Assembly: GCA_002005505.1 (NCBI GenBank)
Contig: KV908642.1
Location: forward strand, 62,001-126,000
Direction: 5' to 3'
DNA length: 64,000 nt
Source: Botryococcus braunii
Taxonomy: Eukaryota; Chlorophyta; Trebouxiophyceae
The notes under the pieces are model-generated. The model was not told the DNA's origin. It saw nothing but the letters and a program-made list of their open reading frames with translations, and did no database searches. The position numbers were made by a program, and so were the translations under genes. Of the stretch, positions 20,167 through 64,000 are shown piece after piece (within the stretch, counting starts at the first letter, position 1; each line of letters starts with the position of its first letter).

Positions 20167-20895
20167 TACCGTACCGTCGCAAATTATTGTTCATTATAAT
20201 TTATTTGAACACCCAAAAAAGGCCAGATATTAATTATAAATATTAAAAATGAGAAAATCTAATGGCGCTAAATGTTGAACACCCCCCTCGGGGGGTTTTC
20301 TGAATATTTTTTATTTCTGAACATCTCCAAAAACTACCAGAGAACCTTCTAAACATCTAGATAATGTTTAAACACTCCTAAAAAAATGTCTTAGCCACCA
20401 AGAACCTCTAACACCATATGTAAAACCCATAGTAGTCCACCTCGGGACGTGATGATGTCCCGCCCTACTCAACTAACTCTAGATCACTATCTTGGCTACT
20501 TGAGTCATTATCTGATTCACTGCCTTCCTCAACTGAACTGAGCTCTGTCTCTGCCTCTGAGCTGTCATATGTCTGAGCTGTCATCACTGTGCGCTTGTTC
20601 TTGCTGCCCTTAGGTCGCCGGGGCCCCCTCTCGGCACAACCTTGGTCATATCTGATCCTAGATCAGAATTGACAAAATCGGTTTCTAGGCGATGAAAACA
20701 CGTCCCATTATATTTTTTAACGATGCAATAGTGTCTTCCGATCATCCGTGCAAGTCGGGGATGCACGTGCCGCTGTTTTTAATTCCGAAATTTAATGGCG
20801 CAAATTATTGAACACCCGATTTTGGGGTTTTCTGAATATTTTTAAATTTGAACACCCAAATAATTATGTGAACAATAATTTGCGACGGTACGGTA
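20167..20895. mobile_element. Small inverted-repeat element with TACCGTACCG ends
   Basis: The 729-bp unit is bounded by a perfect 27-bp inverted repeat beginning TACCGTACCGTCGCAAA (20167-20193 and 20869-20895), with (TA)n tracts directly outside. Subterminal motifs recur (GGCGC-AAATTATTGAACACCC at about 20792, a variant at 20265; TTTTCTGAATATTTTT). On the minus strand a C-terminal peptide can be read near 20640-20465 (RRPKGSKNKR, resembling an AT-hook, then a Ser/Glu/Asp-rich end). This may be the tail of a lost transposase. No superfamily is assigned. Confidence 0.65.
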
Positions 20896-21240
<345 letters not shown>

Positions 21241-23309: not shown

Positions 23310-24046
<737 letters not shown>

Positions 24047-24813: not shown

Positions 24814-25509
24814 TGTTGTATTAGATGAGTTATTTGTGCCTTTCCCTCAGTGGAGTAATAGTGGCTTTTCCGTCAGTGACAATAATAAATGACTAATATG
24901 GGCGAAACTGCAAAGACTCCGCGGTTATAATCAGTTTGAATGTAGATAGAGATAACGCAAGTTACAGACACGTTCAGTGCAGGAAGGTAGTGGTGCTAGC
25001 ACGGACAGGCAAGGCACTTGTTTGGGACTACACAAGCACTCCGGGTGTTTCCATAAAGTTGCCCAATCAGTCCTTGATTGTTCATGTCCTAGACTCTACT
25101 CTTCGTCACACAGTAGAGCGGACCTTGACTCACACCCTCCGTGCCGCCACTGCACAGGTAACGTGATTGTGAATAGAATAGGAGATTTGAGGCTCTGTTA
25201 GCCTTAGTATTTCATGTTATGTGTATGTGCTTGGCTATCTTGTCATCGGACAATGAGATTGATCCTTTGTGTACTAGTACGTACCAGTTAGGGTAGTTTG
25301 AATTCCGTTGTTAAGAGAGAGCAAGTGAGCAATTGTAATTGACTTGTTTGGGACTACACAAGCACTCCGGGTGTTTCCTTAAAGTTGCCCAATCAGTCAG
25401 TGATTGTTCATGTCCTAGACTCTACTCTTCGTCACACAGTAGAGCGGACTTTGACTCACACCCTCCGTGCCGCCACTGCACAGGAATACGCCAAGCCCAT
25501 AACCTAACA
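24814..25509 (+). repeat. 5' LTR of element D
   Basis: 696 bp. Leader exon copy 1 is 25016-25157 (142 nt), donor GTAACG, spacer with TGTAA at 25334-25338, copy 2 at 25342-25483, then GAATACGCCAAGCCCATAAC to the LTR end. The copies differ at only a handful of positions. The predicted intron is 25158-25483 (326 nt). Confidence 0.93.
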
Positions 25510-31537: not shown

Positions 31538-32183
31538 TGTTGTATTAGATTATTTATTTGTGCCTTTCCCTCAGTGGAGTAATAGTGGCTTTTCCGTCAG
31601 TGACAATAATAAATGACTAATATGGGCGAAACTGCAAAGACTCCGCGGTTATAATCAATTTGAATGTAGATAGAGATAACGCAAGTTACAGACACGTTCA
31701 GTGCAGGAAGGTAGTGGTGCTAGCACGGACAGGCAAGGCACTTGTTTGGAACTACACAAGCACTCCGGGTGTTTCCATAAAGTTGCCCAATCAGTCCTTG
31801 ATTGTTCATGTCCTAGAATCTACTCTTCGTCACACAGTCAAGCGGACCTTGACTCACACCCTCCGTGCCGCCACTGCACAGGTAACGTGATTGTGAATAG
31901 AATAGGAGATTTGAAACTCTGTTAGCCTTAGTATTTCATGTTATGTGTATGTGCTTGGCTATCTTATCATCGGACAATGAGATTGATCCTTTCTGAGTAC
32001 GTACCAGTTAGGGTAGTTTGAATTCCGTTGTTAAGAGAGAGCAAGTGAGCAATTGTAATTGACTTTTTTGGGACTACACAAGCACTCCGGGTGTTTCCTT
32101 AAAGTTGCCCAATCAGTCCTTGATTGTTCATGTCCTAGACTCTACTCTTCGTCACACAGTAGAGCGGACCTTGACTCACACCC
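31538..32183 (+). repeat. 3' LTR of D, left part
   Basis: Leader exon copy 1 is 31740-31881. Copy 2 begins at 32062 and is broken at 32183 by element E. It continues at 40421-40466 (copy 2 end, GAATACGCC, LTR end CTAACA). Confidence 0.92.
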
Positions 32184-32630
32184 TGTTGTATAAACTGATA
32201 GGTACGTATAGATACGTGATGGCAAACGTACTAGATACAGGGGCGCTATCAGTTTATCAAGTGGTTTTAGGAAACATTGTATAACTTGAATTTCTCCACG
32301 TGTGGAGTACAAGTAAGAAGATGCGCCTGATTGCGTGTCAAAGGGTAATGTATTATGTTCAGTTAGGTTGATCATATAAGTGACCTCCATGCAGTACAGG
32401 TCTTGTACTAGTGACGGTTAGGTCACAAGGTAAAGACTCCATTGAGTGTGTACGCGTGTATAAGTATGAGATCCCTGGTGCAGCTATAGAGCTACACGTT
32501 GGCATAGGGCCAAGTCAGGGTTGTTTATGTGACCATGCAGTACGGTACAGCCTCTCGAAAGGAACTGTACCGTTACCGCCGGTTACGATCAGAAGGCATA
32601 GAAACGCCAGATCGCGAGCAAGCTTGGCAG

Positions 32631-33268
32631 TCGATGGGGTGTGGAATGCATCTGGGCTTCGAACTCCAAGCTGAATAATGTTTGCTCTGTATTGAAGGAC
32701 TGCTTGATATACTGCTGTCACATTCATTTCAATACAGGTAAGCTTGCGATCGCTGGCAAGGGTAACGGTCGCAGTCGTGTGGCTGCGATCGTAGGCGTTA
32801 AGCACATGCATACTGATGTTTCTGCTGATTATGAAACATTACATGTGTCTTGTGTTGCAGGAGCTGCATTGCTTGTATGTTACTGTTGTGCGAACAGTAA
32901 GGCTATTTGTTTGTGACGAGTTGCACACTGGTTATAGCGGTGAGTACAGATACGTATAACAAGCATGCTCCTGCTGGTTAAATAACTGTTTTGTTTTGAT
33001 CTCTGATGATCCACATATTGTGCAGATTGGTTGGGAGTAGCCATTAAACTCCTGGGACTGCTGAAGGGCCAAGGGTGTCCTGATCGGAGAGCAGTCGGTA
33101 CGTACACATATGTGGATAGGTTACGTGTGTGTTTTATGTGGTTTAGATATATTTTATGGACACTGATGAACCCACAAGTAAATCGTAACGCTCGGGTGCA
33201 GGCAGATATAGACGGCAGTGCGAGCACTGGTCTATATAGACATTGAGAGTACTTGGTGGTGTTCACAG
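32631..33268 (+). other. Unspliced four-exon leader segment in the E 5' LTR
   Basis: Exon 1 32631-32737 (107 nt), intron 1 32738-32860 (GTAAGC to TTGCAG, 123 nt), exon 2 32861-32939 (79), intron 2 32940-33025 (GTGAGT to GTGCAG, 86 nt), exon 3 33026-33097 (72), intron 3 33098-33201 (GTACGT to GTGCAG, 104 nt), exon 4 33202-33268 (67), then donor GTAAAT. No convincing coding frame runs through the exons, so a non-coding leader is likely. The same segment is at 39359-39996 in the 3' LTR. Confidence 0.88.
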
Positions 33269-33297
33269 GTAAATATACGTAAACCATTTGTAACGAG

Positions 33298-33622
33298 TCG
33301 ATGGGGTGTGGAATGCATCTGGGCTTCGAACTCCAAGCTGAATAGTGTTTGCTCTGTATTGAAGGACTGCTTGATATACTGCTGTCACATTCATTTCAAT
33401 ACAGGAGCTGCATTGCTTGTATGTTACTGTTCTGCGAACAGTAAGGCTATTTGTGTGTGACGAGTTGCACACTGGTTATAGCGATTGGTTGGGAGTAGCC
33501 ATTAAACTCCTGGGACTGCTGAAGGGCCAAGGGTGTCCTGATCGGAGAGCAGTCGGCAGATATAGACGGCAGTGCGAGCACTGGTCTATATAGACATTGA
33601 GAGTACTTGGTGGTGTTCACAG
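33298..33622 (+). other. Spliced copy of the leader segment in the E 5' LTR
   Basis: Exon 1 33298-33404, exon 2 33405-33483, exon 3 33484-33555, exon 4 33556-33622. The lengths (107, 79, 72, 67) equal those of the upstream exons and there are one to three substitutions in 325 nt. The junctions fall exactly at the predicted splice sites. It is followed by GAAGTGATTC, the presumed exon 5. The counterpart in the 3' LTR is 40026-40350. Confidence 0.9.
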
Positions 33623-33689
33623 GAAGTGATTCTCTGACGGCATACGTACCGCTTACAGTTACGGCATCCTCCAACTAATACACAACAAA

Positions 33690-33703
33690 GGTGCTGGGCC
33701 CAC
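33690..33703 (+). other. Primer-binding-site-like sequence of E
   Basis: GGTGCTGGGCCCAC lies two bases after the LTR. It differs from the initiator tRNA-Met-type PBS of the other elements (GGTTATGGGCCCAC) only at the two bases opposite the anticodon region, so it may be a diverged form or use another tRNA half. Confidence 0.5.
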
Positions 33704-33713
33704 AACTTGCTGC

Positions 33714-34694
33714 ATGCCAGAGGAGGAAGTCATTGTGATCGAAGATACACCGGAACCTGAAGAGCAACGGACGCCGAGACCTTTCCCAACAACGAGAGGA
33801 AGAGGACTGCGACCTGCATTACGTCAACAGCATCCAAGAAGACCAGAATACTCAGAGTATCCCATTCCTTTTGTCAGGACTCACTTTGAAGTTCCTGACT
33901 ATTTTGGAGACCCGGGTCTGTATATTCATATTGAGAGGCCTGGTGTTCCAAAGGGTCAATTTCAAAGGCCAATTGTGCATCACCAAGACATTGTGCTGAA
34001 CAATCTTCCTGATCCTGTTGAACGAGCAAACTACATATTTGTTAAGACTTGTGAAAGTGAAGAAGGGTCCGCTCTGTGTGGAGGAATCATATCAACGGCA
34101 TTCTTGGCTGGTCTGACACAGCCACGAGAGGAGCCCATTTTGGTCAAGTGGGAGGAATTGATTGTGTTCAGTGATCCCCTTGCTGATAGCCTGGTGCATG
34201 AGGTAGCAGAGCTATACGGGAAGAGCCTTCCAAAAGAAGACTGGGAGGTGCACTATTTTCTGAAAGTGTGGAACCGTTTGCAGGAGTTATTTAAGCTAAA
34301 TGCACACGGGCCACGGGAAGGTTTTCCTTCGTTCTTTCTCGACAGAGCTATTGTTGAGGGAAGAGAGGGAACAGGACAGGTACTCAGGTGGTACAGAGAA
34401 TACCATGTGTATATCGAGCTGGTACAGTTCCAGTTCCGTTTACACCAAGGGCAGAGTAAGGCAGTATTTGACCGACTGCCATCATGGAGGGAGGTGGAGG
34501 AGCTGGGACTCAATCCGTTGCGGCTCCATCCGGATTACTTCCAGACCTACGAGGGGATCTCACGGGGGTGGCTGGAACCAGTGATGGGGTTACAGCGACT
34601 GACATGGGAAGAGATTCAGGAGTTGGAACAGCAGTGGCTAGGGGATCTGAACCGGCCAGTACATCTGGCCGGGAAGATCCGACTAGTCCAGTGA
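33714..34694 (+). CDS. ORF1 of E, 326 residues, unknown function
   Basis: An open frame starts MPEEEVIVIEDTPEPEEQ. The hydrophobic VIVI flanked by acidic residues fits a SUMO-interacting motif. A basic RG/RP-rich stretch follows (TTRGRGLRPALRQQHPRRP, about residues 26-44). The remaining roughly 280 residues form a Trp/Tyr-rich globular-looking part (LVKWEELIVFSDPLADSLVHE, VLRWYREYHVYIELVQFQF, LRLHPDYFQTY). DPVERANYIFVK may correspond to TPDERALIVKDY of the D ORF1, which would make the bodies distantly related although the H3-like tail is absent; this is weak. It occupies the same position as ORF1 in the other copias, and its last 211 nt overlap gag-pol in another frame. Confidence 0.7.
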   Translation: MPEEEVIVIEDTPEPEEQRTPRPFPTTRGRGLRPALRQQHPRRPEYSEYPIPFVRTHFEVPDYFGDPGLYIHIERPGVPKGQFQRPIVHHQDIVLNNLPDPVERANYIFVKTCESEEGSALCGGIISTAFLAGLTQPREEPILVKWEELIVFSDPLADSLVHEVAELYGKSLPKEDWEVHYFLKVWNRLQELFKLNAHGPREGFPSFFLDRAIVEGREGTGQVLRWYREYHVYIELVQFQFRLHQGQSKAVFDRLPSWREVEELGLNPLRLHPDYFQTYEGISRGWLEPVMGLQRLTWEEIQELEQQWLGDLNRPVHLAGKIRLVQ

Positions 34695-37600
34695 ACTCCA
34701 GTCTGCAGGTCACCACCTCCTTAGATAGACTGGGTTTTTCGTTGGACATCTGGACACAAAATGTGTTCCATTGTGCCGTGAGCAGGAATGTGCTGGAATG
34801 CCTAAAAACGTCCATGCCAGGGACTAAAGGGGATGCAGTGGCACTGCATTTGTTGCTGCAAAAGGTTCCAGAAGTGTGGGCTCAGAAGGTGGCATTCGCT
34901 GAATCTGCAGCAGTGGCATTTAAATGGATTATGAGCCAGTTCCAAGGGGGAGCAAACTTGGAAATCAATGACCAATGGCTGGAGCTGTTGGACAGTGAAA
35001 TAATGGGGAGTGAGGGCACGTTGGAAGAATATGTGGCTAGGAAAGAGCTGCTGGCAAAAAGACTGAACGATAACAACATGCCAGTAACGCAAACAAAACT
35101 CAAGAAGTCAATCCTGAAGTGCCTTCCGTACCAGTTTGATGCTCATAAACCAAGTTTATCTTCTTCCACTGCTACATGCAATATTAACCAAACTTTGGCT
35201 GCTATAAGGGTGGTTGCAGAAACCATAGGTTTCAATGATCAGCAACCAAGGGCTCCAAGGGCGGCTGTTGTCCGCAAGCCGGGTCCGGCTGTCAGGAACG
35301 ATAATCGGACATGCTATGAGTGTGGTGAGAGGGGGCACATTAAAATGAACTGCCCAAGACTTGTGCACCCTCCTAACCGAGGTAACCCACCCGCTGGAGA
35401 AGAGGTAAATCCAAGGGCAGGGATGGCATCCTCAAAGTTACAAAACACTGGGGAAGGGCAGTGGATTGTTGACACGGGTGCTACTAACCATATATGCAAT
35501 GATTTGCATTTAATGTCCAATGTCATTGTTTATGATGAAGCCAAACCACTGGGACTGGCAGCGAGTGATGGTCAAGGATTGCGAAAGGCACAGGGAAATG
35601 TGTGTCTATCTGTGCAAGGTGGGGGAAGTGTGTTGCTTACACATGTTGAGTATGTCCCGACAGCGACTGATAACCTCTTGTCCGTGTCAGCTGCCGTCAA
35701 AGATGGATGCACATTCTCTGTAAATGAAAAAGGGGAATATGTAGCTGTCATGTGCCAGGCAAATGAGTTCATGTGTGATATTGAACCGAAAGGGAGCTTA
35801 TACTTCCTGTCACACAAAAGTGGGCTCTGTGCATGGGGAGGGGCGGCTGCACTTTTAGTAACTACACGAGAAGAGACAGAGTTGTGGCACAAAAGGTTGG
35901 GACATCCGGGAGTTGTATGCATGTCAAGAATGTTGAGAGAGCAGATTGTGAATGAGGTTAAAGGAAGTGTGGGTGAAGTAGAAAGAGTTGTGACTCACTG
36001 TGACGGTTGTATACGGGGGAAGCAGACTAGGACTCCCACGCCTTCCTCCACTGCGGCTGAGTCTACTGAGAGACTTCAGCTGGTCCATATGGACGTAGTG
36101 GGAGAGCTGCCTGTGGCTGGGCTGAATGGAGAGAAGTATATGCTGGTCCTTTTGGACGACTTCTCGCATAGAATCCAAATCAGGACTTTCAGTTCAAAGA
36201 CTGAGGTAGGAGCACTCGTTCAAGAGGTCCTCTTGAATTGGGAGGTGTCAACTAAATGTAAAGTTGGCACTGTTAGGACGGACAGAGGTACTGAATTTGT
36301 AAACCGCGAGCTGGCAGATTTCTTTGCCAGAAAGGGGATCGCGCATCAGACCTCTGCACCGTACACGCCTCAACAAAATGGCAAGGTAGAGCGTGTAAAC
36401 AGGGTAATCAAGGAACGAGTGAGGGCCCTCCTCTTCACAGCAGAGGCAGGGCCTGAACTCTGGGCTGAGGCAGCACACACTGTGGTACGACTGCTGAATG
36501 TGAGTGCCGTCAGTGGAAAGGAGTCTTGTCCGTATGAGGCATTCTATGGCAAGAAACCCTCAGTTGCTCACCTGAAGGTTTGGGGTTGTTTGGCTTATGT
36601 GAAGCTGCCTGATAGGCAGCTGTCAGCACTTGGTCCGCGCTCAGTTGCGGGCATGTTTGTGGGATATGAAACAGGATCCAAGGCGTATCGGATCCTGGTG
36701 CAAGGCAAGGTAATGGTGAGTAAAGATGTGAGATTTATTGAAGATGAGTTGGGCTATCCGGTTGTAATCCCACCCACACTACAACCTGAAATGAGGGTTG
36801 AAGAGTTGTTTCATGATGAAGAGGAGGCACCTGAGGTTTCTCTGGAAGAGGCAATTGATGCCCCGCGCGAAATTGCGATAAACCCGGAATTACGAGCGGA
36901 CGATATGCATGAAGTCATGAGGCGTGCACGGGAGGTGCTGCAGCAGCTTCCTGCAGAACTTCCAGCCGGGGAAGTGACTGATGAGGGAAATGGTGATGGT
37001 GAAAGTCAAGGGCAGGCAAGTGAGAGAGACGAAGAGCAGCATGATAATGAGGAGAATGCAGAGAGGGGAAGAGGTGGTGGGCGTTACGAATTGAGAGAGA
37101 GAGTTGGCCCGCCAGATAAGTATGTTCCTGGGGCATATCACACGCAAGTAAAAGCCCATGCAGTAGTAGTTGAGGAGGCAAAATTGAAAGCATCAGAGTT
37201 GTCCATTCCAAAACACATTGGAGAAGCGCTTGCCAGTCCTCAAAAGGAGTACTGGAAGCAAGCCATGCAAGAGGAGCTAGATGCTATTGAAGAATGTGAC
37301 ACGTATGAGGTGGTGAGGAGGCCAGAGGGAGCAAAAGTGATTCCTCTGATTTGGGTGTTTGCCTTAAAGACGGATGAATATGGCGATGTCATCCGGTTTA
37401 AGGCAAGACTCGTAGCGCAAGGTTGCAGGCAGGTAGAAGGTGTAGATTGTGATCAAACCTTTGCACCTGTCAGCACCCATGCATGTAGGAGAGTGTTGCT
37501 GAATATTGCAGCAACAGAAAATCTTGAAATCCACCAAGTGGATATCAAGACGGCATTTCTCAATGGAGAATTAGAGGAGGAGGTGTATGTAACGCAGCCT

Positions 37601-38767
37601 CCTGGTTTCTCTAATGGTGATAAAAAAGAGGTGTTTCGCTTGAAGAAGGCTTTGTATGGACTCAAGCAGGCACCTCGGGCATGGCACAAAAGGCTCTCCA
37701 AGGATCTTGGAGAGATGGGTTTCAAGGCATGTAGGAGCGACCCGGCCTTATTCTTGGACTCCGGAAGGGGTGAAGACCGGGCGTTCATTGTTACCTATGT
37801 GCTGATCATCTGCAAGAGTGGTGAGAGAGTGTCAGAAATCAAGGGTGAGTTGAAAGCAAGATTTAAGGTTCACGACTTAGGGGAAGTGAAGAACTTCCTG
37901 GGAAGTGAAGTCAGGCACGATCGCGATGGGGGAGTGATAGTGATTTCCAACGCTCAGAAGATCAAGGATCTTGCGGAGTCATTTGGAGTGAGTGAGAGTG
38001 ACAAGGGAGTGAGCACACCCATGTGTAAAAGCTTTGTGCAGACAGAGCTTCCACAAGGGAAGGTGGGGGATGAGAGTGCGGGTTCAGGGTCTCCACTGCC
38101 GGACGGACACCGGTACCTGGAACTCGTAGGGTCACTGCAGTACCTGGCCAATACCACTCGTCCTGATATTTCGCAGGCAGTAAGCCTGCTGGCACGTTAC
38201 CGTGCTGCCCCAACCACTGCACACATGCGTGCAGGGTTGAGGATTGTGAGATATCTGTTGGGCACCAAGGAGATGGGTTTGGTTTATGGGGGAAAGGGGA
38301 AGCAAAGTCTGGCTGGCTTTGTAGATTCAGATTTTGCGGGAGATGTTGATACACGAAAATCAACAACTGGTTTCGTGTTCATGCTGAATGGGGGAGCAGT
38401 GTCGTGGGGAAGTAAGAAGCAACAGTCAGTTGCTACTTCCACTGTCGAGGCAGAGTTTATTGCGGCGAGCCATGCAATAAAGGAAGGAGTGTGGCTTGGG
38501 AGCTTGTTGGAGGAGCTCGGTCAGTCTGTGTCTGGTGTAGAATTAAGAATGGACAACATGGGCTGTATTGCAAATCTGCAAAACCATGTATTGTCCAAAT
38601 ACACCAAGCATATTAGCGTGTGCTATCATCAAGCGAGGGAAAAGGTAGCATGGGGGCAGATCACGCCGGTGTACGTCAACACAGAGGAAAAAGTGGCTGA
38701 CATTTTTACAAAGCCGTTGGCCAGTCCAGCATTTCTCAAGCACCGTGACAGCTTGAGAATGGGTTAA
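34484..38767 (+). CDS. gag-pol: Copia gag-pol of E, open frame but RT catalytic aspartates missing
   Basis: The frame has 1427 codons. Gag is recognisable from about residue 80 (SMPGTKGDAVALHLLLQKVP), CCHC knuckle CYECGERGHIKMNC near 277, protease QWIVDTGATNHICND near 326, integrase zinc part (WHKRLGHPG, CDGCIRGK, about 467-510), DDE core with Asp in HMDVVGE, Asp in RTDRGTEF and Glu in NGKVERVNR, and RT from VIPLIWVFALK near 950. RNase H has DSDFAGDVDTRKSTTG near 1278 and TSTVEAEFIAA. At the RT active site (about 37794) the text reads TYVLIIC: the Asp-Asp pair that A, B and D show after YV is absent without loss of frame. The enzyme should therefore be inactive. The start codon is uncertain; the first ATG overlaps ORF1 in the -1 frame. 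Confidence 0.9.
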   Translation: MEGGGGAGTQSVAAPSGLLPDLRGDLTGVAGTSDGVTATDMGRDSGVGTAVARGSEPASTSGREDPTSPVNSSLQVTTSLDRLGFSLDIWTQNVFHCAVSRNVLECLKTSMPGTKGDAVALHLLLQKVPEVWAQKVAFAESAAVAFKWIMSQFQGGANLEINDQWLELLDSEIMGSEGTLEEYVARKELLAKRLNDNNMPVTQTKLKKSILKCLPYQFDAHKPSLSSSTATCNINQTLAAIRVVAETIGFNDQQPRAPRAAVVRKPGPAVRNDNRTCYECGERGHIKMNCPRLVHPPNRGNPPAGEEVNPRAGMASSKLQNTGEGQWIVDTGATNHICNDLHLMSNVIVYDEAKPLGLAASDGQGLRKAQGNVCLSVQGGGSVLLTHVEYVPTATDNLLSVSAAVKDGCTFSVNEKGEYVAVMCQANEFMCDIEPKGSLYFLSHKSGLCAWGGAAALLVTTREETELWHKRLGHPGVVCMSRMLREQIVNEVKGSVGEVERVVTHCDGCIRGKQTRTPTPSSTAAESTERLQLVHMDVVGELPVAGLNGEKYMLVLLDDFSHRIQIRTFSSKTEVGALVQEVLLNWEVSTKCKVGTVRTDRGTEFVNRELADFFARKGIAHQTSAPYTPQQNGKVERVNRVIKERVRALLFTAEAGPELWAEAAHTVVRLLNVSAVSGKESCPYEAFYGKKPSVAHLKVWGCLAYVKLPDRQLSALGPRSVAGMFVGYETGSKAYRILVQGKVMVSKDVRFIEDELGYPVVIPPTLQPEMRVEELFHDEEEAPEVSLEEAIDAPREIAINPELRADDMHEVMRRAREVLQQLPAELPAGEVTDEGNGDGESQGQASERDEEQHDNEENAERGRGGGRYELRERVGPPDKYVPGAYHTQVKAHAVVVEEAKLKASELSIPKHIGEALASPQKEYWKQAMQEELDAIEECDTYEVVRRPEGAKVIPLIWVFALKTDEYGDVIRFKARLVAQGCRQVEGVDCDQTFAPVSTHACRRVLLNIAATENLEIHQVDIKTAFLNGELEEEVYVTQPPGFSNGDKKEVFRLKKALYGLKQAPRAWHKRLSKDLGEMGFKACRSDPALFLDSGRGEDRAFIVTYVLIICKSGERVSEIKGELKARFKVHDLGEVKNFLGSEVRHDRDGGVIVISNAQKIKDLAESFGVSESDKGVSTPMCKSFVQTELPQGKVGDESAGSGSPLPDGHRYLELVGSLQYLANTTRPDISQAVSLLARYRAAPTTAHMRAGLRIVRYLLGTKEMGLVYGGKGKQSLAGFVDSDFAGDVDTRKSTTGFVFMLNGGAVSWGSKKQQSVATSTVEAEFIAASHAIKEGVWLGSLLEELGQSVSGVELRMDNMGCIANLQNHVLSKYTKHISVCYHQAREKVAWGQITPVYVNTEEKVADIFTKPLASPAFLKHRDSLRMG

Positions 38768-38898
38768 GCCTAGAGTGTTGAAGTTCTAGGGCTTTAGGGC
38801 TTTAGGGCTTCAAAGATTCTAAGTTTGGCTCGGAAGAGTAGTGCGTTAATGGGAACAATTGAACTCAACATTAATGAACGACATTATACATGTTTTCT

Positions 38899-38911
38899 AA
38901 AAGGGGAAGAT
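38899..38911 (+). other. Polypurine tract of E
   Basis: AAAAGGGGAAGAT lies just before the 3' LTR start at 38912. Confidence 0.75.
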
Positions 38912-40415
38912 TGTTGTATAAACTGATAGGTACGTATAGATACGTGATGGCAAACGTACTAGATACAGGGGCGCTATCAGTTTATCAAGTGGTTTTAGGA
39001 AACATTGTATAACTTGAATTTCTCCACGTGTGGAGTACAAGTAAGAAGATGCGCCTGATTGCGTGTCAAAGGGTAATGTATTATGTTCAGTTAGGTTGAT
39101 CATATAAGTGACCTCCATGCAGTACAGGTCTTGTACTAGTGACGGTTAGGTCACAAGGTAAAGACTCCATTGAGTGTGTACGCGTGTATAAGTATGAGAT
39201 CCCTGGTGCAGCTATAGAGCTACACGTTGGCATAGGGCCAAGTCAGGGTTGTTTATGTGACCATGCAGTACGGTACAGCCTCTCGAAAGGAACTGTACCG
39301 TTACCGCCGGTTACGATCAGAAGGCATAGAAACGCCAGATCGCGAGCAAGCTTGGCAGTCGATGGGGTGTGGAATGCATCTGGGCTTCGAACTCCAAGCT
39401 GAATAATGTTTGCTCTGTATTGAAGGACTGCTTGATATACTGCTGTCACATTCATTTAAATACAGGTAAGCTTGCGATCGCTGGCAAGGGTAACGGTCGC
39501 AGTCGTGTGGCTGCGATCGTAGGCGTTAAGCACATGCATACTGATGTTTCTGCTGATTATGAAACATTACATGTGTCTTGTGTTGCAGGAGCTGCATTGC
39601 TTGTATGTTACTGTTGTGCGAACAGTAAGGCTATTTGTGTGTGACGAGTTGCACACTGGTTATAGCGGTGAGTACAGATACGTATAACAAGCATGCTCCT
39701 GCTGGTTAAATAACTGTTTTGTTTTGATCTCTGATGATCCACATATTGTGCAGATTGGTTGGGAGTAGCCATTAAACTCCTGGGACTGCTGAAGGGCCAA
39801 GGGTGTCCTGATCTGAGAGCAGTCGGTACGTACACATATGTGGATAGGTTGCGTGTGTGTTTTATGTGGTTTAGATATATTTTATGGACACTGATGAACC
39901 CACAAGTAAATCGTAACGCTCGGGTGCAGGCAGATATAGACGGCAGTGCGAGCACTGGTCTATATAGACATTGAGAGTACTTGGTGGTGTTCACAGGTAA
40001 ATATACGTAAACCATTTGTAACGAGTCGATGGGGTGTGGAATGCATCTGGGCTTCGAACTCCAAGCTGAATAGTGTTTGCTCTGTATTGAAGGACTGCTT
40101 GATATACTGCTGTCACATTCATTTCAATACAGGAGCTGCATTGCTTGTATGTTACTGTTGTGCGAACAGTAAGGCTATTTGTGTGTGACGAGTTGCACAC
40201 TGGTTATAGCGATTGGTTGGGAGTAGCCATTAAACTCCTGGGACTGCTGAAGGGCCAAGGGTGTCCTGATCGGAGAGCAGTCGGCAGATATAGACGGCAG
40301 TGCGAGCACTGGTCTATATAGACATTGAGAGTACTTGGTGGTGTTCACAGGAAGTGATTCTCTGACGGCATACGTACCGCTTACAGTTACGGCATCCTCC
40401 AACTAATACACAACA
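38912..40415 (+). repeat. 3' LTR of E
   Basis: 1504 bp, offset 6728 from the 5' LTR. It has the same intron-bearing (39359-39996) and intron-free (40026-40350) segments. Substitutions relative to the 5' LTR include a change in exon 1 of the unspliced copy (CATTTAAATACAG) and one in its exon 3 (GATCTGAG). Confidence 0.95.
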
Positions 40416-57281: not shown

Positions 57282-58601
57282 TTAGATTGATGCTCGGATG
57301 CGCTGACGTGTTGCATATTTCCCGTTGAGATATCCATGATAGCAAAATGACCCAAGTTGTGACGGCGGCATGCGGCACACCTGGTCCTTGGTCATTGACC
57401 CTGGAATAACTTCTTGTACTTCGCCCTTGCTGCAAGGTACTTTGTAGGTGTCGTTGTCGGTTGCTGCCCGTTGGGGAGGGGATTCAGTATGCACAGCATT
57501 TGCGGCATCACCGTTGTTGATCGGGGACCCTTGGTCCATGAGTGTAGTTGCGCAGGGCTGAATTGCTCGTGCCGCGGCTCCTTGCTTACGTATTCCTTCC
57601 AAATCCAAACTCCGACATGCCAACATGTTACTGCTTTGGCTAAAGTCCCCTAAAGCAAGCTTCTTATCATGCATGGTCTTCCTTCGTAGGGAGTTTGCAT
57701 TCTTTAGCATTCTACCGGTGGTGATATAAGCTACTTTAAACCTTTTTAATGCGGGCAATACTATTCCCTTTCTAGATATTTCAACACGTCTTGTGGGAAT
57801 TCCAAATACTCTAGGTAAAACACTACAACATTTGTGCGTCCAGCCTAAAGAAGGCATGGCACACCCAGTACTATCATGTGGGGCACTTTTAAAGTGAACT
57901 GGTTCTAACATAGGACACATTACTTTTGCTGACGCGAACGTTGGACTGAAGTTGTCTGAGTCTATTATGTTGCATAAACTCTCTTGGGCGATGCACGAGC
58001 GAGGGCTCGTGGGTGAACTTGATGTATTGTGACTACTGTTAATCTGAGGCTTCTGCATACTATTTACTGCGTGTTGAAGGTGATCCGGGGAATGCTCATC
58101 CCGGGATTGCGTCGGTAGACGTAAATTAAGTACTTCTGATTGTACTGCGGCAGACTTAGGCTGCATGGGAACTCCCGTTAGACTTTTGTCCTGGTGTACC
58201 ACTGCTTCTGCAGGGACAGCGATAAGGTGCGGCAAGCCGAGGTCTATCCTATGATGCATCAAAGTAGTACGTTGCTGCGTAATGCCAGGGGAAAACACAT
58301 CCCTGTACTCCTTAACAAGTCCAAGGGTGCGCTCGCGCTCCTCGGGTAAAATCTTGGTCCCCAGGGGAACATCTTCGGGCTCAAGGTGGTCTGTCTCTTC
58401 TTCAATTATTTGGATGTCTGGCAATTTCTGTAGGCCGGGGTCTTCAGTCAAGTTGGGTGCAGGGGTCTTCACAATCATCACCGGCCAACGGGTAGGCCCC
58501 ACACGCATGCGAGAAGAGCTGGGGGATCGTCCCGGGGCTGTAAACAGCTGCACTCCTGGAGGATATTGTCGAACGATTTGGAATTTCTCCATTACTATCG
58601 G
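57282..58601 (-). pseudogene. pol: Gypsy pol fragment of H (region before RT), cut by G1
   Basis: An open minus-strand frame of about 440 residues. Residues 95-145 show the segment that precedes RT in gypsy elements (LPEERERTLGLVKEYRDVFS, HHRIDLGLPHLIAV). Upstream residues (GPTRWPVMIVKTPAPNLTED) are probably the protease-RT spacer. The remaining C-terminal part is Ser/Thr-rich with no RT motif, so RT was lost or replaced. The frame has no start of its own because G1 inserted at 58602. Confidence 0.55.
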
Positions 58602-58842
58602 TGTCACGGACCGATCGGCAAAGGTCCCAAACCCCGACTGCCACGAACCTTACATAATGGGGCTCCATCTCTCGCCCAAGGTCTCTATAACTCTAAACCC
58701 AAGCCTTTAGGTGCCTAGACTATCCTAACACCTCTCTATCTTGTCCAATCTCTGCCCGCACAGCAGCACCACCGGTGCGCTACTGCACGTGTAACGCCGT
58801 TATGCGTCACGAGGTTCACCCGATCGTTGAACCCCTGTTACA
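58602..58842 (-). repeat. 3' LTR of gypsy element G1
   Basis: 241 bp, TGTCACGGACC to CCCTGTTACA, followed by polypyrimidine TCCTCCCCCTCCT (polypurine tract on the minus strand). Nearly identical to 60310-60550. Confidence 0.9.
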
Positions 58843-59342
58843 TCCTCCCCCTCCTATCTTGGACGTCCCGGCCAAGTAGGTAAGGAGACTAACCTAACCA
58901 CCCAAGGCTTTAGGTTTTGGAGCTTTAGAGACCGAGAGTCGCTAGTCCGGCGTCCCCAGCCCCAGCCGGACCCCTTGTCCTGTCCATTCCTTACATATCC
59001 AGTCCAGTCCGTGTATGTTCCTACATGTCCAGTCCTGTCCTTTACGCGAACCCGGGAACCGATACGACAACTAGTCCGGTCCTTTCCACTGGTCCTTTCC
59101 ACATCACGATACATCAGGGTAAACACAAGTCGCGACACTCTACACATGTGTCCTGTCCAGGGTGAGCGGTTAGCACCGCACGCACCCGAGAGGGGCCAGG
59201 CGCCTCACTCTCGTCCGTTCCCATGTCCGTTCCACTCTTAAGGTCTACCCATACTGGAGTACCCCCAAGGTGCACTCTGGTTGCCACGTCCAGAGCTTCC
59301 CACAAAAGGAGCACCAAGGGGCCGACCCGACCTGCCAGGGCG
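58843..59342 (-). other. 3' untranslated region of G1
   Basis: Polypurine tract (58843-58855 on the minus strand), then about 490 bp of non-coding sequence up to the pol stop. Repeated almost identically at 60551-61050. Confidence 0.7.
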
Positions 59343-60309
59343 TCAAGCACGCCTAGCACGCTTGCGTTGAGATGTAGCTTCCGTTCCTGTCCGTTTAGCT
59401 TCCGACCCACGCCCCGTGGTTAGACTCCAGTACTGCTGTACCGCCTCTCGAGAATGCACTAAGTTTTCCTCAGGTTCCCAGGTATTATGGATGCTCTCAT
59501 AGCCGGACCACTTAATAAGATACTCGCGCACTACTTTCTTGCCCCTAAGTTTCCGCTCTCTATGTGCAAGCACTGCCTCCACCTCATATTCTAGCTCACC
59601 ATCTATGATTTCAGGAGGAGGTGGGGGTTGCACGCTTCCGTCAGTTTTATACGGTTTGAGAAGGGAAACATGGAATACGTCGTGCATGCGCATATGCGTA
59701 GGTAGCAGCAACTTGTATGCTACCGGGGAAATAACCCGGGTGACCGGAAAGGGGCCAATGTACCTTGGCAACAATTTCTTAGTCCGGGAATGTTTGAACT
59801 TAATATTCTTTGACGAAAGCAGGACTTGTTGACCTACTTCAAAGCCTGGTAGGTCCCGCCTTTTATTGGCGTACGCCTTCTGTCTTTCTTGGGCTGCCTT
59901 AAGGCAAGTCCTGGCCCGTTCTAAGTCCCACCGCATACGTCTGACAAACTCAGCCGCAGCTGGAACATATTCTTGCTCGATACCACGACCAAGAACAGGT
60001 GCATCATAGATTTCTTGAAAAGGGATCACAGGGTCCTGCCCAAAAGTTAAGCGAAACGGAGTAGTATTGATAGATTGATTGTAAGTGTTATTATATGCAA
60101 ACTCGGCCTCACACAAATGCTTATCCCAATCAGTCTGTCTCCCCCCCACATAGTGCCGAAGGTAATCTTCCAAGATTCTGTTGATGCGTTAAGTCTGGCC
60201 GTCGCTCTGGGGGTGGAAAGCAGTAGACAAGGCGGACCGGCACCCCGTGAGCCTAAACAACTCTTGACAGAACTTGCCCACCCAACGTGGGTCTCTATCT
60301 GAAACTATC
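59343..60309 (-). pseudogene. pol: G1 integrase C-terminus and chromodomain, cut by G2
   Basis: The minus-strand frame runs from the integrase core (LCEAEFAYNNTYNQSINTTP) through the GPY/F module (RYIGPFPVTRVISPVAYKLL) and a C-terminal chromodomain (YEVEAVLAHRERKLRG, YLIKWSGY, NTWEPEENL) to RKRARRA. Just upstream an in-frame TAA replaces Glu in the QTERINR integrase motif (about 60189). The coding sequence stops at 60309, where the G2 LTR begins. It is almost identical to 61051-62017, so the copies are recent. Confidence 0.9.
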
Positions 60310-60550
60310 TGTCACGGACCGATCGGCAAAGGTCCCAAACCCCGACTGCCACGAACCTTACATAATGGGGCTCCACCTCTCGCCCAAGGTCTCTATAACT
60401 CTAAACCCAAGCCTTTAGGTGCCTAGACTATCCTAACACCTCTCTATCTTGTCCAATCTCTGCCCGCACAGCAGCACCACCGGTGCGCTACTGCATGTGT
60501 AACGCCGTTATGCGTCACGAGGTTCACCCGATCGTTGAACCCCTGTTACA
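60310..60550 (-). repeat. 3' LTR of gypsy element G2
   Basis: 241 bp, same ends and flanking polypyrimidine as G1. Flanked on the left by CTATC of the G1 integrase gene; the other target-site copy should lie beyond 64000. Confidence 0.92.
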
Positions 60551-61050
60551 TCCTCCCCCTCCTATCTTGGACGTCCCGGCCAAGTAGGTAAGGAGACTAA
60601 CCTAACCACCCAAGGCTTTAGGTTTTGGAGCTTTAGAGACCGAGAGTCGCTAGTCCGGCGTCCCCAGCCCCAGCCGGACCCCTTGTCCTGTCCAGTCCTT
60701 ACATATCCAGTCCAGTCCGTGTATGTTCCTACATGTCCAGTCCTGTCCTTTACGCGAACCCGGGAACCGATACGACAACTAGTCCGGTCCTTTCCACTGG
60801 TCCTTTCCACATCACGATACATCAGGGTAAACACAAGTCGCGACACTCTACACATGTGTCCTGTCCAGGGTGAGCGGTTAGCACCGCACGCACCCGAGAG
60901 GGGCCACGCGCCTCACTCTCGTCCGTTCCCATGTCCGTTCCACTCCTAAGGTCTACCCATACTGGAGTACCCCCAAGGTGCACTCTGGTTGCCACGTCCA
61001 GAGCTTCCCACAAAAGGAGCACCAAGGGGCCGACCCGACCTGCCAGGGCG

Positions 61051-64000
61051 TCAAGCACGCCTAGCACGCTTGCGTTGAGATGTAGCTTCCGTTCCTGTCC
61101 GTTTAGCTTCCGACCCACGCCCCGTGGTTAGACTCCAGTACTGCTGTACCGCCTCTCGAGAATGCACTAAGTTTTCCTCAGGTTCCCAGGTATTATGGAT
61201 GCTCTCATAGCCGGACCACTTAATAAGATACTCGCGCACTACTTTCTTGCCCCTAAGTTTCCGCTCTCTATGTGCAAGCACTGCCTCCACCTCATATTCT
61301 AGCTCACCATCTATGATTTCAGGAGGAGGTGGGGGTTGCACGCTTCCGTCAGTTTTATACGGTTTGAGAAGGGAAACATGGAATACGTCGTGCATGCGCA
61401 TATGCGTAGGTAGCAGCAACTTGTATGCTACCGGGGAAATAACCCGGGTGACCGGAAAGGGGCCAATGTACCTTGGCAACAATTTCTTAGTCCGGGAATG
61501 TTTGAACTTAATATTCTTTGACGAAAGCAGGACTTGTTGACCTACTTCAAAGCCTGGTAGGTCCCGCCGCCTTTTATCGGCGTACGCCTTCTGTCTTTCT
61601 TGGGCTGCCTTAAGGCAAGTCCTGGCCCGTTCTAAGTCCCACCGCATACGTCTGACAAACTCAGCCGCAGCTGGAACATATTCTTGCTCGATACCACGAC
61701 CAAGAACAGGTGCATCATAGATTTCTTGAAAAGGGATCACAGGGTCCTGCCCAAAAGTTAAGCGAAACGGAGTAGTATTGATAGATTGATTGTAAGTGTT
61801 ATTATATGCAAACTCGGCCTCACACAAATGCTTATCCCAATCAGTCTGTCTCCCCCCCACATAGTGCCGAAGGTAATCTTCCAAGATTCTGTTGATGCGT
61901 TCAGTCTGGCCGTCGCTCTGGGGGTGGAAAGCAGTAGACAAGGCGGACCGGCACCCCGTGAGCCTAAACAACTCTTGACAGAACTTGCCCACCCAACGTG
62001 GGTCTCTATCTGAAACTATCTCACGGGGAAAGCCATGTAAAGTGAAGACACGCGTGCGCAATAGTTGGGCAATGTCAGCGGCGTCGGCCTCCTGTGACGT
62101 CGGCGCAAAATGGGCAAATTTAGATAATCTATCAACCCCAACCCAAATTGCATTGTACCCAGATTTGGTCTTAGGTAATCCCGTGATGAGATCCATGGAC
62201 ATGGACTCCCATTTTCGAGAAGGGATTTCTAAGGGGTGTAACAACCCTACAGGTAAGCCTGAAAAAGGTTTTACTCTTTGGCACGAGTCGCAATGCGCTA
62301 CATAGTCGGTTACATCTGCATTTACCCCTGGCCACCACCAAGATCTGGCGACCAGCTCGATTGTCCTGTCCCGCCCTTGGTGACCCACTATGGGGGGTCC
62401 ATGAAGGTTTTCAAGTATTTCCCTACGGAGGTTCCTTTCCGCCCCGTCCACTGAAACGTAATGCGAGGGCACATACAAACGCGAGTTTTTATACCAGAAC
62501 CCGTTCCGGTGGGCCAATTTCCGACGGTTTTGTTTACGCGAGAGCCATCCATCAACTAAATAAGCATCCTTGAGAACCCGCACCCATGCTTCCATTCCTT
62601 CCAGTTGCGAGGGTAGGGAGTGAGAGTCTGCAGCCTCCCCTGCCCCCATCATATCCGCTTCGACAAGGAGAGAGTGCTCCCCCAGATGTTCACCCGACAC
62701 GTTGGCCACGGCCAGGTTAGGACATCTTGAAAGTGGGTCTGCTGGGTTGCCAACCCCAGGTGACCATTCCCACTTAATGTCAAATTGTTGCAGATATTCG
62801 GCCCACCGCGCCCTTCTGGGTGAAAGGAGAGATTGGGTTCGTAAAACGCTGTTAGCCTTATGGTCAGTGACAACAACAAATGAGGTGCCTAGGACATAGC
62901 AGCGCCACTCTTTCAAAGCATATAAGACTCCAAAAAGTTCTTTTTCAGTTGTGCTATATCGCGTCTCAGCTTAATTGAATTTTTTTACTGAAATAAGCGA
63001 CCGGCTTTTGGTCTTGTAATAAAACTGCACCAACTCCTATGTCACTAGCATCGGTAACGACACGGTACGGCTTTTGTGGATTTGGCAATACCAAGGTGGG
63101 AGCATTGACTAAGGCATTTTTGAGACTATCAAAAGAATGTTGCTCGGTGTTGCCCCAAATCCATGGAGTCTTGCCAGTTAGATGGGTAAGTGGGACAGCT
63201 ATCGTACTATAGTTTTTGACAAACTTGCGGAAGTAGTTGGCTAGCCCCAGAAATTGCCGTACGTGCGTCGCCGTAGTGGGAGTTGGCCAGTCCTTGATAG
63301 CTTTAACTTTAGCCGGATCCACTTTCAGCCCGTCCCGTCCAACAACATGTCCCAAGTAACACAACTCTGACGTTAGGAAGTCACATTTGGATAACTTAGC
63401 ATACAGTTTCTGTTCCCGGAGCCGCTCGAGCACACGTGCCAAATGTTGGTAATGATCCTCTAAGGATTGACTGTGGATTAACAAGTCATCTAGATAAATA
63501 ACGACGAAGCCTTCACGAATAAAGTCGTGAAATATTGAATTCATCAACCTTTGAAAAGTTGACGGAGCATTCGTTAGCCCAAAGGGCATAACCAAAAACT
63601 CATAGGACCCAAAAGGTGTCCTAAATGCTGTTTTGGGTACATCCGCCTCATGCAGTCGTACTTGGTGGTAACCCGACAACAGGTCAAACGAACTGAAATA
63701 TCGTGAGCCTTGTAGTTTATCTAGCAAATCGTCAATTCTTGGTAATGGATATTTGTCTTTCCTTGTGAGATTATTGACCGCTCGATAGTCGATGACCATA
63801 CGGAAAGAACCATCCTTTTTTCTAACAAACAGAATTGGGCTGCCATAAGGAGAGGAACTAGGCCTAATGAACCCTTGGGTTAAGAGTTCTTCGACGTGCC
63901 GCCTACATTCTTTGACTTCAGGTTCAGCAAGCCTATAGGTGGGTCGGCACGGGGGTACATGGCCTGGTTCCATTGGTATAGTGTGAGCTACCCCCCTATC
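61051..64000 (-). pseudogene. pol: G2 pol: RT, RNase H, integrase, chromodomain, one frameshift
   Basis: From the right edge: RT with KKDGSFRMVIDYRAVN, PLPRIDDLLDKL, SSFDLLSGYHQ, TAFRTPFGSYEF and catalytic YLDD (63500 region), LGHVVGRDGL, then RNase H start VVTDASDIGVGAVL. A one-base frameshift near 62970 (after AYFSKKIQLS) separates this from the next frame, which gives AETRYSTTEKEL, TDHKANSVL, the HHCC zinc domain (HGPPIVGHQGRD, CDSCQRVK), DDE core (SMDLITG, VSDRDPRW, SDGQTERINR), GPY/F module and chromodomain. The chromodomain keeps aromatic residues at the three cage positions (Y in YEVE, W and Y in KWSGY), the pattern of H3K9-methyl readers. The frameshift could be real or a sequencing error. 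Confidence 0.93.

Follow-up and report, generated by a model that had tools for sequence, protein, structure and literature searches.

A Ty1/copia retrotransposon of Botryococcus braunii whose long terminal repeat probably regenerates itself through RNA splicing

The stretch of DNA analyzed here (the window, 64,000 nt of contig KV908642.1 from Botryococcus braunii) contains a Ty1/copia-type retrotransposon, element E, at positions 32184–40415. It is bounded by two long terminal repeats (LTRs) on the plus strand, the 5' LTR at 32184–33687 (TGTTGT..ACAACA) and the 3' LTR at 38912–40415, each with a length of 1504 nt and with an identity of 99.67% to each other. The LTRs have TG..CA ends, and the 5-bp target-site duplication (TSD) CACCC is found on both sides of the element. 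The internal region contains two plus-strand open reading frames (ORFs). The one at 33714–34694 (326 aa) has no Pfam match, and the one at 34484–38767 (1427 aa) is a gag-pol ORF that contains a zinc knuckle, protease, integrase, and reverse transcriptase, in the Ty1/copia order. The Pfam domains herein are Pol_BBD (residues 327–409), gag_pre-integrs (454–514), rve (529–629), SH3_retrovirus (688–756), and RVT_2 (939–1181); the protease motif DTGA lies between the zinc knuckle and the integrase (motif and zinc knuckle were read by eye). Inspection for a primer-binding site and a polypurine tract gave TGGGCCCA a few bases after the 5' LTR and AAAAGGGGAAGA ending 1 base before the 3' LTR. With the pol order protease–integrase–reverse transcriptase, the paired TG..CA LTRs, and the 5-bp TSD, E is like other Ty1/copia elements (Pseudoviridae). 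The two closest protein relatives of gag-pol are JGI proteins with 80 and 71% identity over residues 560–1427. Among the 120 matches listed of 3694, the top named relative is from Tetradesmus obliquus and others are from land plants, Haematococcus, Myrmecia, Volvox, and the fungus Microbotryum; no relative turned up when viral contigs were scanned with the pol protein.

E itself was apparently inserted into the LTR of another copia-like element, as window positions 31538–32184 are 97% identical to 24814–25464. Elsewhere in the window, a tandem duplication of ~1.72 kb (58594–62026, 99.2% identical) overlaps gypsy-like pol ORFs on the minus strand, and long, nearly pure (TA)n arrays occur at 20894–21143 and 23341–23956 with (TG)n runs close by.

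The LTR of E has the order U3, exon 1, intron 1, exon 2, intron 2, exon 3, intron 3, exon 4, a 29-nt spacer, exons 1–4 joined, and a 65-nt tail. The upstream part of U3 (32184–32628) would hold the promoter, with a TATA-like CATAGAAA ~30 nt before 32629 (weak and read by eye). Leader exons 1 (32631–32737, 107 nt), 2 (32861–32939, 79 nt), 3 (33026–33097, 72 nt), and 4 (33202–33268, 67 nt) are delimited by block alignment with the second copy. They are separated by intron 1 (32738–32860, 123 nt, GTAAGC..TTGCAG), which is missing from the spliced copy, intron 2 (32940–33025, 86 nt, GTGAGT..GTGCAG), and intron 3 (33098–33201, 104 nt, GTACGT..GTGCAG). The original prediction had described four such blocks with GT-AG separators, recurring in joined form at 33298–33622 and present in both LTRs. 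All of this is borne out: the joined blocks align over 325 nt with 3 mismatches and 0 gaps, the borders are those given above, and the 3' LTR repeats the arrangement. Because of the length and identity of the match, a chance origin is excluded. The region common to both copies begins 2 bases earlier than first noted, at an AG (32629 and 33296), and the shared start reads AG[TC]TCGATGG in both. The putative transcription start is the A of the first AG (32629), since the variable join described below precedes the same AG in the second copy. The second, intronless copy thus comprises AG plus exons 1–4 (33296–33622), and its first 10–20 nt would be R. Stop codons occur in each of the three forward frames of this spliced leader.

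Upstream of the spliced copy lie TGTAA (33289–33293), a candidate chlorophyte poly(A) signal and the sole TGTAA in the LTR of the window, and a hypervariable join directly before the AG (33294–33295), the putative landing point of strong-stop cDNA. The spliced copy is followed by the family-specific U5 tail (33623–33687), which would be exon 5 of the mature leader. The spacer and the entire spliced copy together (33269–33622) begin with a donor, GTAAAT, and end in an acceptor-like TTCACAG/G. Judged by these borders, they can be a fourth intron, as the earlier-proposed junction 33268/33623 had implied.

The assembly (176 Mb, 989 contigs) was searched for the junctions of this arrangement with up to 3 mismatches. 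The exon 4–29-nt spacer–exon 1 junction occurs at 75 places, by a pattern that does not catch LTRs in which exon 1 is preceded by two additional bases (AGTC); the spliced exon 1–exon 2 junction occurs at 133 places (100 listed), and the intron 1–exon 2 junction at 118 (100 listed). In two further searches, 40 of 229 and 40 of 227 candidates were scored. Loci were picked by similarity or pattern and, hence, are not random samples. Eighty fetched loci were classified by segment, L054 being the same place as L016. The standard order is found in 60 of them, and both copies are present, although cut or with an extra unit, in another six (L041, L055, L067, L069, L051, and L052); the others are spliced-only (4), have an unspliced leader joined to U5 (2), are otherwise truncated (6), or lack an LTR (2). 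Both copies are readable in 66 loci (65 places), and in 66/66 three introns are present in the first copy and none in the copy adjoining U5, with the qualifications that the second copy of L067 is cut after exon 3, that L069 is without the tail, that L061 lacks 7 nt at the intron 2 donor, and that the extra middle unit of L052 retains intron 3. A search for other E LTRs had been proposed, in which unrelated blocks added independently to a shorter ancestor would have spoken against a splicing origin. Instead, 78 of the 80 loci consist of the same blocks in order or of shorter or longer forms of these blocks, and the other two, fetched as partner LTRs, hold no LTR part.

For comparison of the two copies, 62 LTRs and the window reference were aligned, leaving out 15 of 77 loci (odd or truncated structures and L054). 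Matching 5-bp flanks were found for 9 of 12 candidate pairs. Of the 13 recognised pairs, 9 are TSD-confirmed, the other four being paired by spacing and structure only. One LTR of each recognised pair was dropped, so that allele, distance, and site counts refer to 49 LTRs. Scoring of the 325 paired positions gave 115 minor alleles. Seven of them are carried by at least 4 LTRs, and 85 of their 91 carriers have the allele in both copies; the six unmatched cases belong to L061 (3) and L022 (3), LTRs that look mosaic. For the 20 alleles carried by at least 2 LTRs, the 119 carriers divide into 95 with the allele in both copies, 11 in the exons only, and 13 in the spliced copy only. Nine of these 24 unmatched carriers again fall in L061 and L022 and 15 elsewhere, four of the latter at the CpG that ends exon 2. 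Alleles seen in the spliced copy only are each carried by 2 LTRs at most. The 95 private alleles behave differently, 68 being present in one copy and 27 in both, of which 19 are in the diverged L076 (19 of its 32 private alleles). The copies of L076 show 31 and 33 differences from the window and 13 within itself. The mean distance between the exons and the spliced copy of the same LTR is 0.0058, compared with 0.0176 between LTRs, a value reached in 0 of 2000 shuffles, and 22 of the 49 LTRs have zero differences between their own copies.

Pairs of LTRs show the state of an element at insertion. Seven of the nine TSD-confirmed elements have no exon/spliced difference common to both LTRs; the exceptions are the element of the window with one shared difference and L022/L023 with six. 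For this six-difference spliced copy, there is no close donor in the sample (the nearest has 5–6 differences), and it shares alleles with older lineages. As common changes are shared by the copies, recent ones mostly are not, and seven of nine pairs agree at birth, homogenisation takes place before or at insertion, and the agreement is lost afterward. Hence, as far as these alignments go, the spliced copy is not a relic, and its evolution is concerted with that of the intron-bearing copy throughout the family.

The join in front of the spliced copy reads TTTGTAA plus 1–3 bases, followed by the AG[TC]TCGATGG of the second copy. Nine forms were found in 54 joins (all fetched loci of that stage minus 14 dropped, with L051 and L052 contributing two joins each): CG 28, CC 9, TG 9, C 2, CCG 2, and G, TC, CT, and GG once each. 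Before the first copy, the sequence is GC in 60 of 61 cases, the exception (G) being the spliced-only L066, where landing would have been on the first copy. Changes were counted on a tree built from 32184–33268 of 47 LTRs (the 49 minus L067 and L055). Column 33295 changes 10 times, the most of 1540 columns (next 6), and the join string 19 times, which is above every 2-nt window of 1501 (the join window 17, the next 11 in the tail); the first-copy counterpart of the join site shows 0 changes in the 47 LTRs. On a tree of U3 and leader, columns 3' of the join may show more changes simply because they come from another RNA, and tail column 33683 is changeable too, with 11 for its 2-nt window versus 17–19 at the join. 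The join state is identical in both LTRs of 13/13 recognised pairs (nine of them TSD-confirmed). Such a variable join is what repeated first-strand transfer at this place would leave, namely added or slipped bases at the cDNA end that corresponds to the cap, and the C before AG in 12 of 54 joins may reflect starts one base upstream of 32629.

A second family of LTRs (family 2; L034, L042, and others) displays a sharp border at the other end of the spliced copy. In 50-nt windows, its U3 is 78–90% identical to that of the window up to ~32533 and 90–98% nearer the leader, and its leader, introns, and spliced copy are 96–100% identical. The high identity stops within one base of the exon 4–U5 border (33622/33623); the tail is ~76% identical, and the internal region becomes unalignable within ~100 nt. 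Such a pattern would arise if the unspliced copy were the template for rewriting the spliced one and U5 were kept in cis. A leader exchanged between families would then be carried by rewriting into the spliced copy as far as the splice junction, and the tail (exon 5) would stay. Individual LTRs combine both families. L061 has a family-1 leader followed by a spliced copy that is nearest to family 2 (2 differences versus 6 to its own exons), the family-2 AGTC start in the second copy only, and a family-2 tail; its two copies, hence, stem from different families. L028 has a family-1 U3 (344/347 with the window) and a family-2 U5 tail (64/67), with a leader and spliced copy that do not discriminate the families, so that its break is not placeable at the join; L081, probably its partner LTR, has the same tail and a U3 that reads N. 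Mosaics are expected if strong-stop cDNA of one RNA lands on another RNA.

The splice signals themselves are conserved. Across the 49 LTRs, 1 of 16 GT/AG positions varies by substitution (the intron 4 donor GT, lost in L070), compared with 80 of 277 inner intron sites; gaps touch 3 of the 16 positions, in L061 and L067. TGTAA is present in 49/49 aligned LTRs and at 74 of the 75 junction places, one reading TGGAA, and the donor at 33269 sits 20 nt upstream of it. In the chlorophytes studied, except Pyramimonas, UGUAA is reported in PMC1868727 to peak ~17 nt before the cleavage site, and experimental proof of its role as poly(A) signal is, according to that account, lacking. Such a spacing would put the end of E RNA near 33306, ~10 nt into the spliced copy.

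On the combined evidence, E is a Ty1/copia retrotransposon that probably renews its LTR by way of RNA splicing. In the proposed cycle, transcription would start at ~32629, ahead of the intron-bearing leader, and introns 1–3 would be spliced out together with intron 4, which takes the old spliced copy and TGTAA with it. The mature RNA would, thus, begin with exons 1–4 joined to U5. In the 3' LTR, the RNA would traverse the still unspliced leader and be cleaved just past TGTAA, 10–20 nt into the spliced copy, and this short stretch would serve as R. Minus-strand strong-stop cDNA would copy U5 and the spliced exons, land on the R of the 3' LTR, and be extended into the unspliced leader and U3. 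The LTR of the child element would then consist of U3, the intron-bearing leader, the spacer, a newly written spliced leader, and U5—meaning that the unspliced copy would act as inherited master and the spliced copy would be remade in each cycle with the introns left intact. The core of this cycle, a spliced 5' leader that is reverse-transcribed and written behind the unspliced one, is what the original prediction had put forward. It is supported by the concerted evolution, the agreement of the copies in seven of nine elements, and the variable join, and, on this comparative evidence, the writing does not look like one past event.

It counts against the model that the same introns would have to be removed at the 5' end and retained at the 3' end of one RNA, and that intron 4 would have to use the very end of exon 4 as its acceptor, where the pyrimidine tract is poor. 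In a stricter form of the model, which we regard as somewhat more likely than not, no spliced copy would ever descend from the parental spliced copy. The latter would be discarded within intron 4 in the 5' LTR and barely transcribed in the 3' LTR, and an RNA-written, disposable copy would be re-created every generation from the mature leader beside the inherited master. As the poly(A) signal lies within intron 4, splicing would also silence polyadenylation in the 5' LTR. The arrangement may have originated when spliced strong-stop cDNA was first transferred to a place past the unspliced leader and not onto the first exon.

Among other readings, the use of two start sites is considered unlikely. 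Most genomic RNA would here start at 33296, and the spliced copy would be an ordinary R-U5 copied from itself and rarely overwritten by a spliced transcript from 32629. An AAATATA 19–25 nt before 33296 would suit such a start, any start at 33296 fits a variable join at 33294–33295, and L022/L023 was born with its six differences between the copies. However, the overwriting would have to be frequent, because seven of nine elements were without a difference at birth and alleles of the spliced copy alone are each carried by two LTRs at most, and the C found before AG in 12 of the joins matches the base in front of 32629 (GGC/AG) and not the usual CG/AG. DNA gene conversion between copies would keep them alike, would yield concerted evolution, and would act over a mere ~350–670 nt between the paired blocks. 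It appears very improbable, as four blocks of 67–107 nt would need to be converted without moving an intron at any of the 66 loci, and the variable join would be left unexplained. The 68 unmatched private changes and the concentration of the matched ones in L076 (19/27) further argue against general homogenisation after insertion.

A single ancient event that wrote the spliced copy, with both copies inherited separately from then on, would account for the same 29-nt spacer and order at all 75 junction places. The alleles would then not match between copies, yet nearly all carriers of common alleles (85/91) match, and L076 would differ within itself as much as from others; this reading retains hardly any plausibility. 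For an assembly artefact, nothing was found in favour other than the fragmented state of the assembly; with the structure at 65 places and different target sites in the nine TSD-confirmed elements, its probability is negligible. Hence, the single ancient duplication, DNA gene conversion, and the assembly artefact were rejected on this evidence.

Within Ty1/copia, PMC3601003 reports a very short R in two groups from plants, Sire (10 bp) and Retrofit, and the putative R of E would be very short like theirs. The Ty1/copia norm is one R-U5 copied unchanged from the RNA 5' end; in E, the spliced copy follows the upstream leader exons instead. This is a departure in mechanism, not descent, and we know of no described Ty1/copia member that has both introns in the LTR and an intron-free copy of that leader. 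In foamy viruses, as outlined in PMC3694450, the major splice donor lies in R just ahead of the LTR poly(A) signal, and U1 snRNP at this donor suppresses 5' LTR polyadenylation. By sequence only, the donor-like GTAAAT at 33269 upstream of TGTAA at 33289 resembles this arrangement described for foamy viruses; unlike them, E contains whole introns (donor and acceptor) inside the LTR, which ordinary reverse transcription would erase. To our knowledge, foamy viruses have no spliced copy in the LTR. Some Penelope-like elements keep introns through retrotransposition, as E does, but they replicate by target priming without strong-stop transfer, and no spliced copy beside an unspliced one is known to us from them. 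A full-text search of the open-licence PubMed Central literature yielded no evident precedent for LTR introns plus a spliced copy; the phrase 'intron in the LTR' occurs in a paper on an engineered lentiviral vector (PMC5542766). E is an element of known kind whose mode of LTR regeneration appears new.

A retroelement would be expected to lose every intron that splicing removes from its RNA. If the proposed reading holds, the E family splices its leader in every cycle and yet keeps the introns, because the LTR holds a landing strip that matches the spliced RNA. Strand transfer would then be readable from genomic DNA, with each insertion recording start sites, untemplated bases, splice products, and exchange between co-packaged RNAs at a fixed place, and the arrangement suggests a simple means of silencing the 5' LTR poly(A) site.

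Spliced-only LTRs (L036/L037, L048, and L066), which are without TGTAA, are the expected product of cDNA landing on the first copy, and, lacking that signal, they may be dead ends. L036/L037 has the TSD CCTCC (read by eye); the partner LTR of L048 and L066 was sought in two fetched regions (L079 and L080) and is absent there. In L071 and L072, exon 4 of an intron-bearing leader directly adjoins U5, spacer and spliced copy both being absent, as removal of intron 4 would leave it; L072 is without the spacer TGTAA but has its own TGTAA elsewhere. These two and the spliced-only forms could also stem from recombination between repeats. L051 (C163:71550–73405) consists of three units (unspliced, spliced, and spliced), and L052 (C21:785801–787767) has an extra unit of exon 1–exon 2–exon 3–intron 3–exon 4–spacer. 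Both can be read as captured, partly spliced RNAs, but unequal recombination in exon 4 or exon 3 would yield the same units. L078 (C21:779052–780556), the probable 5' LTR of the element of which L052 is the 3' LTR, is without the extra unit, which speaks for recombination as the origin of the unit in L052. Finally, four E LTRs (L015, L003, L033, and L004) lie ~6.7–7 kb apart on one strand at C41:397242–419457, possibly as a tandem LTR–internal–LTR array or as nested copies.
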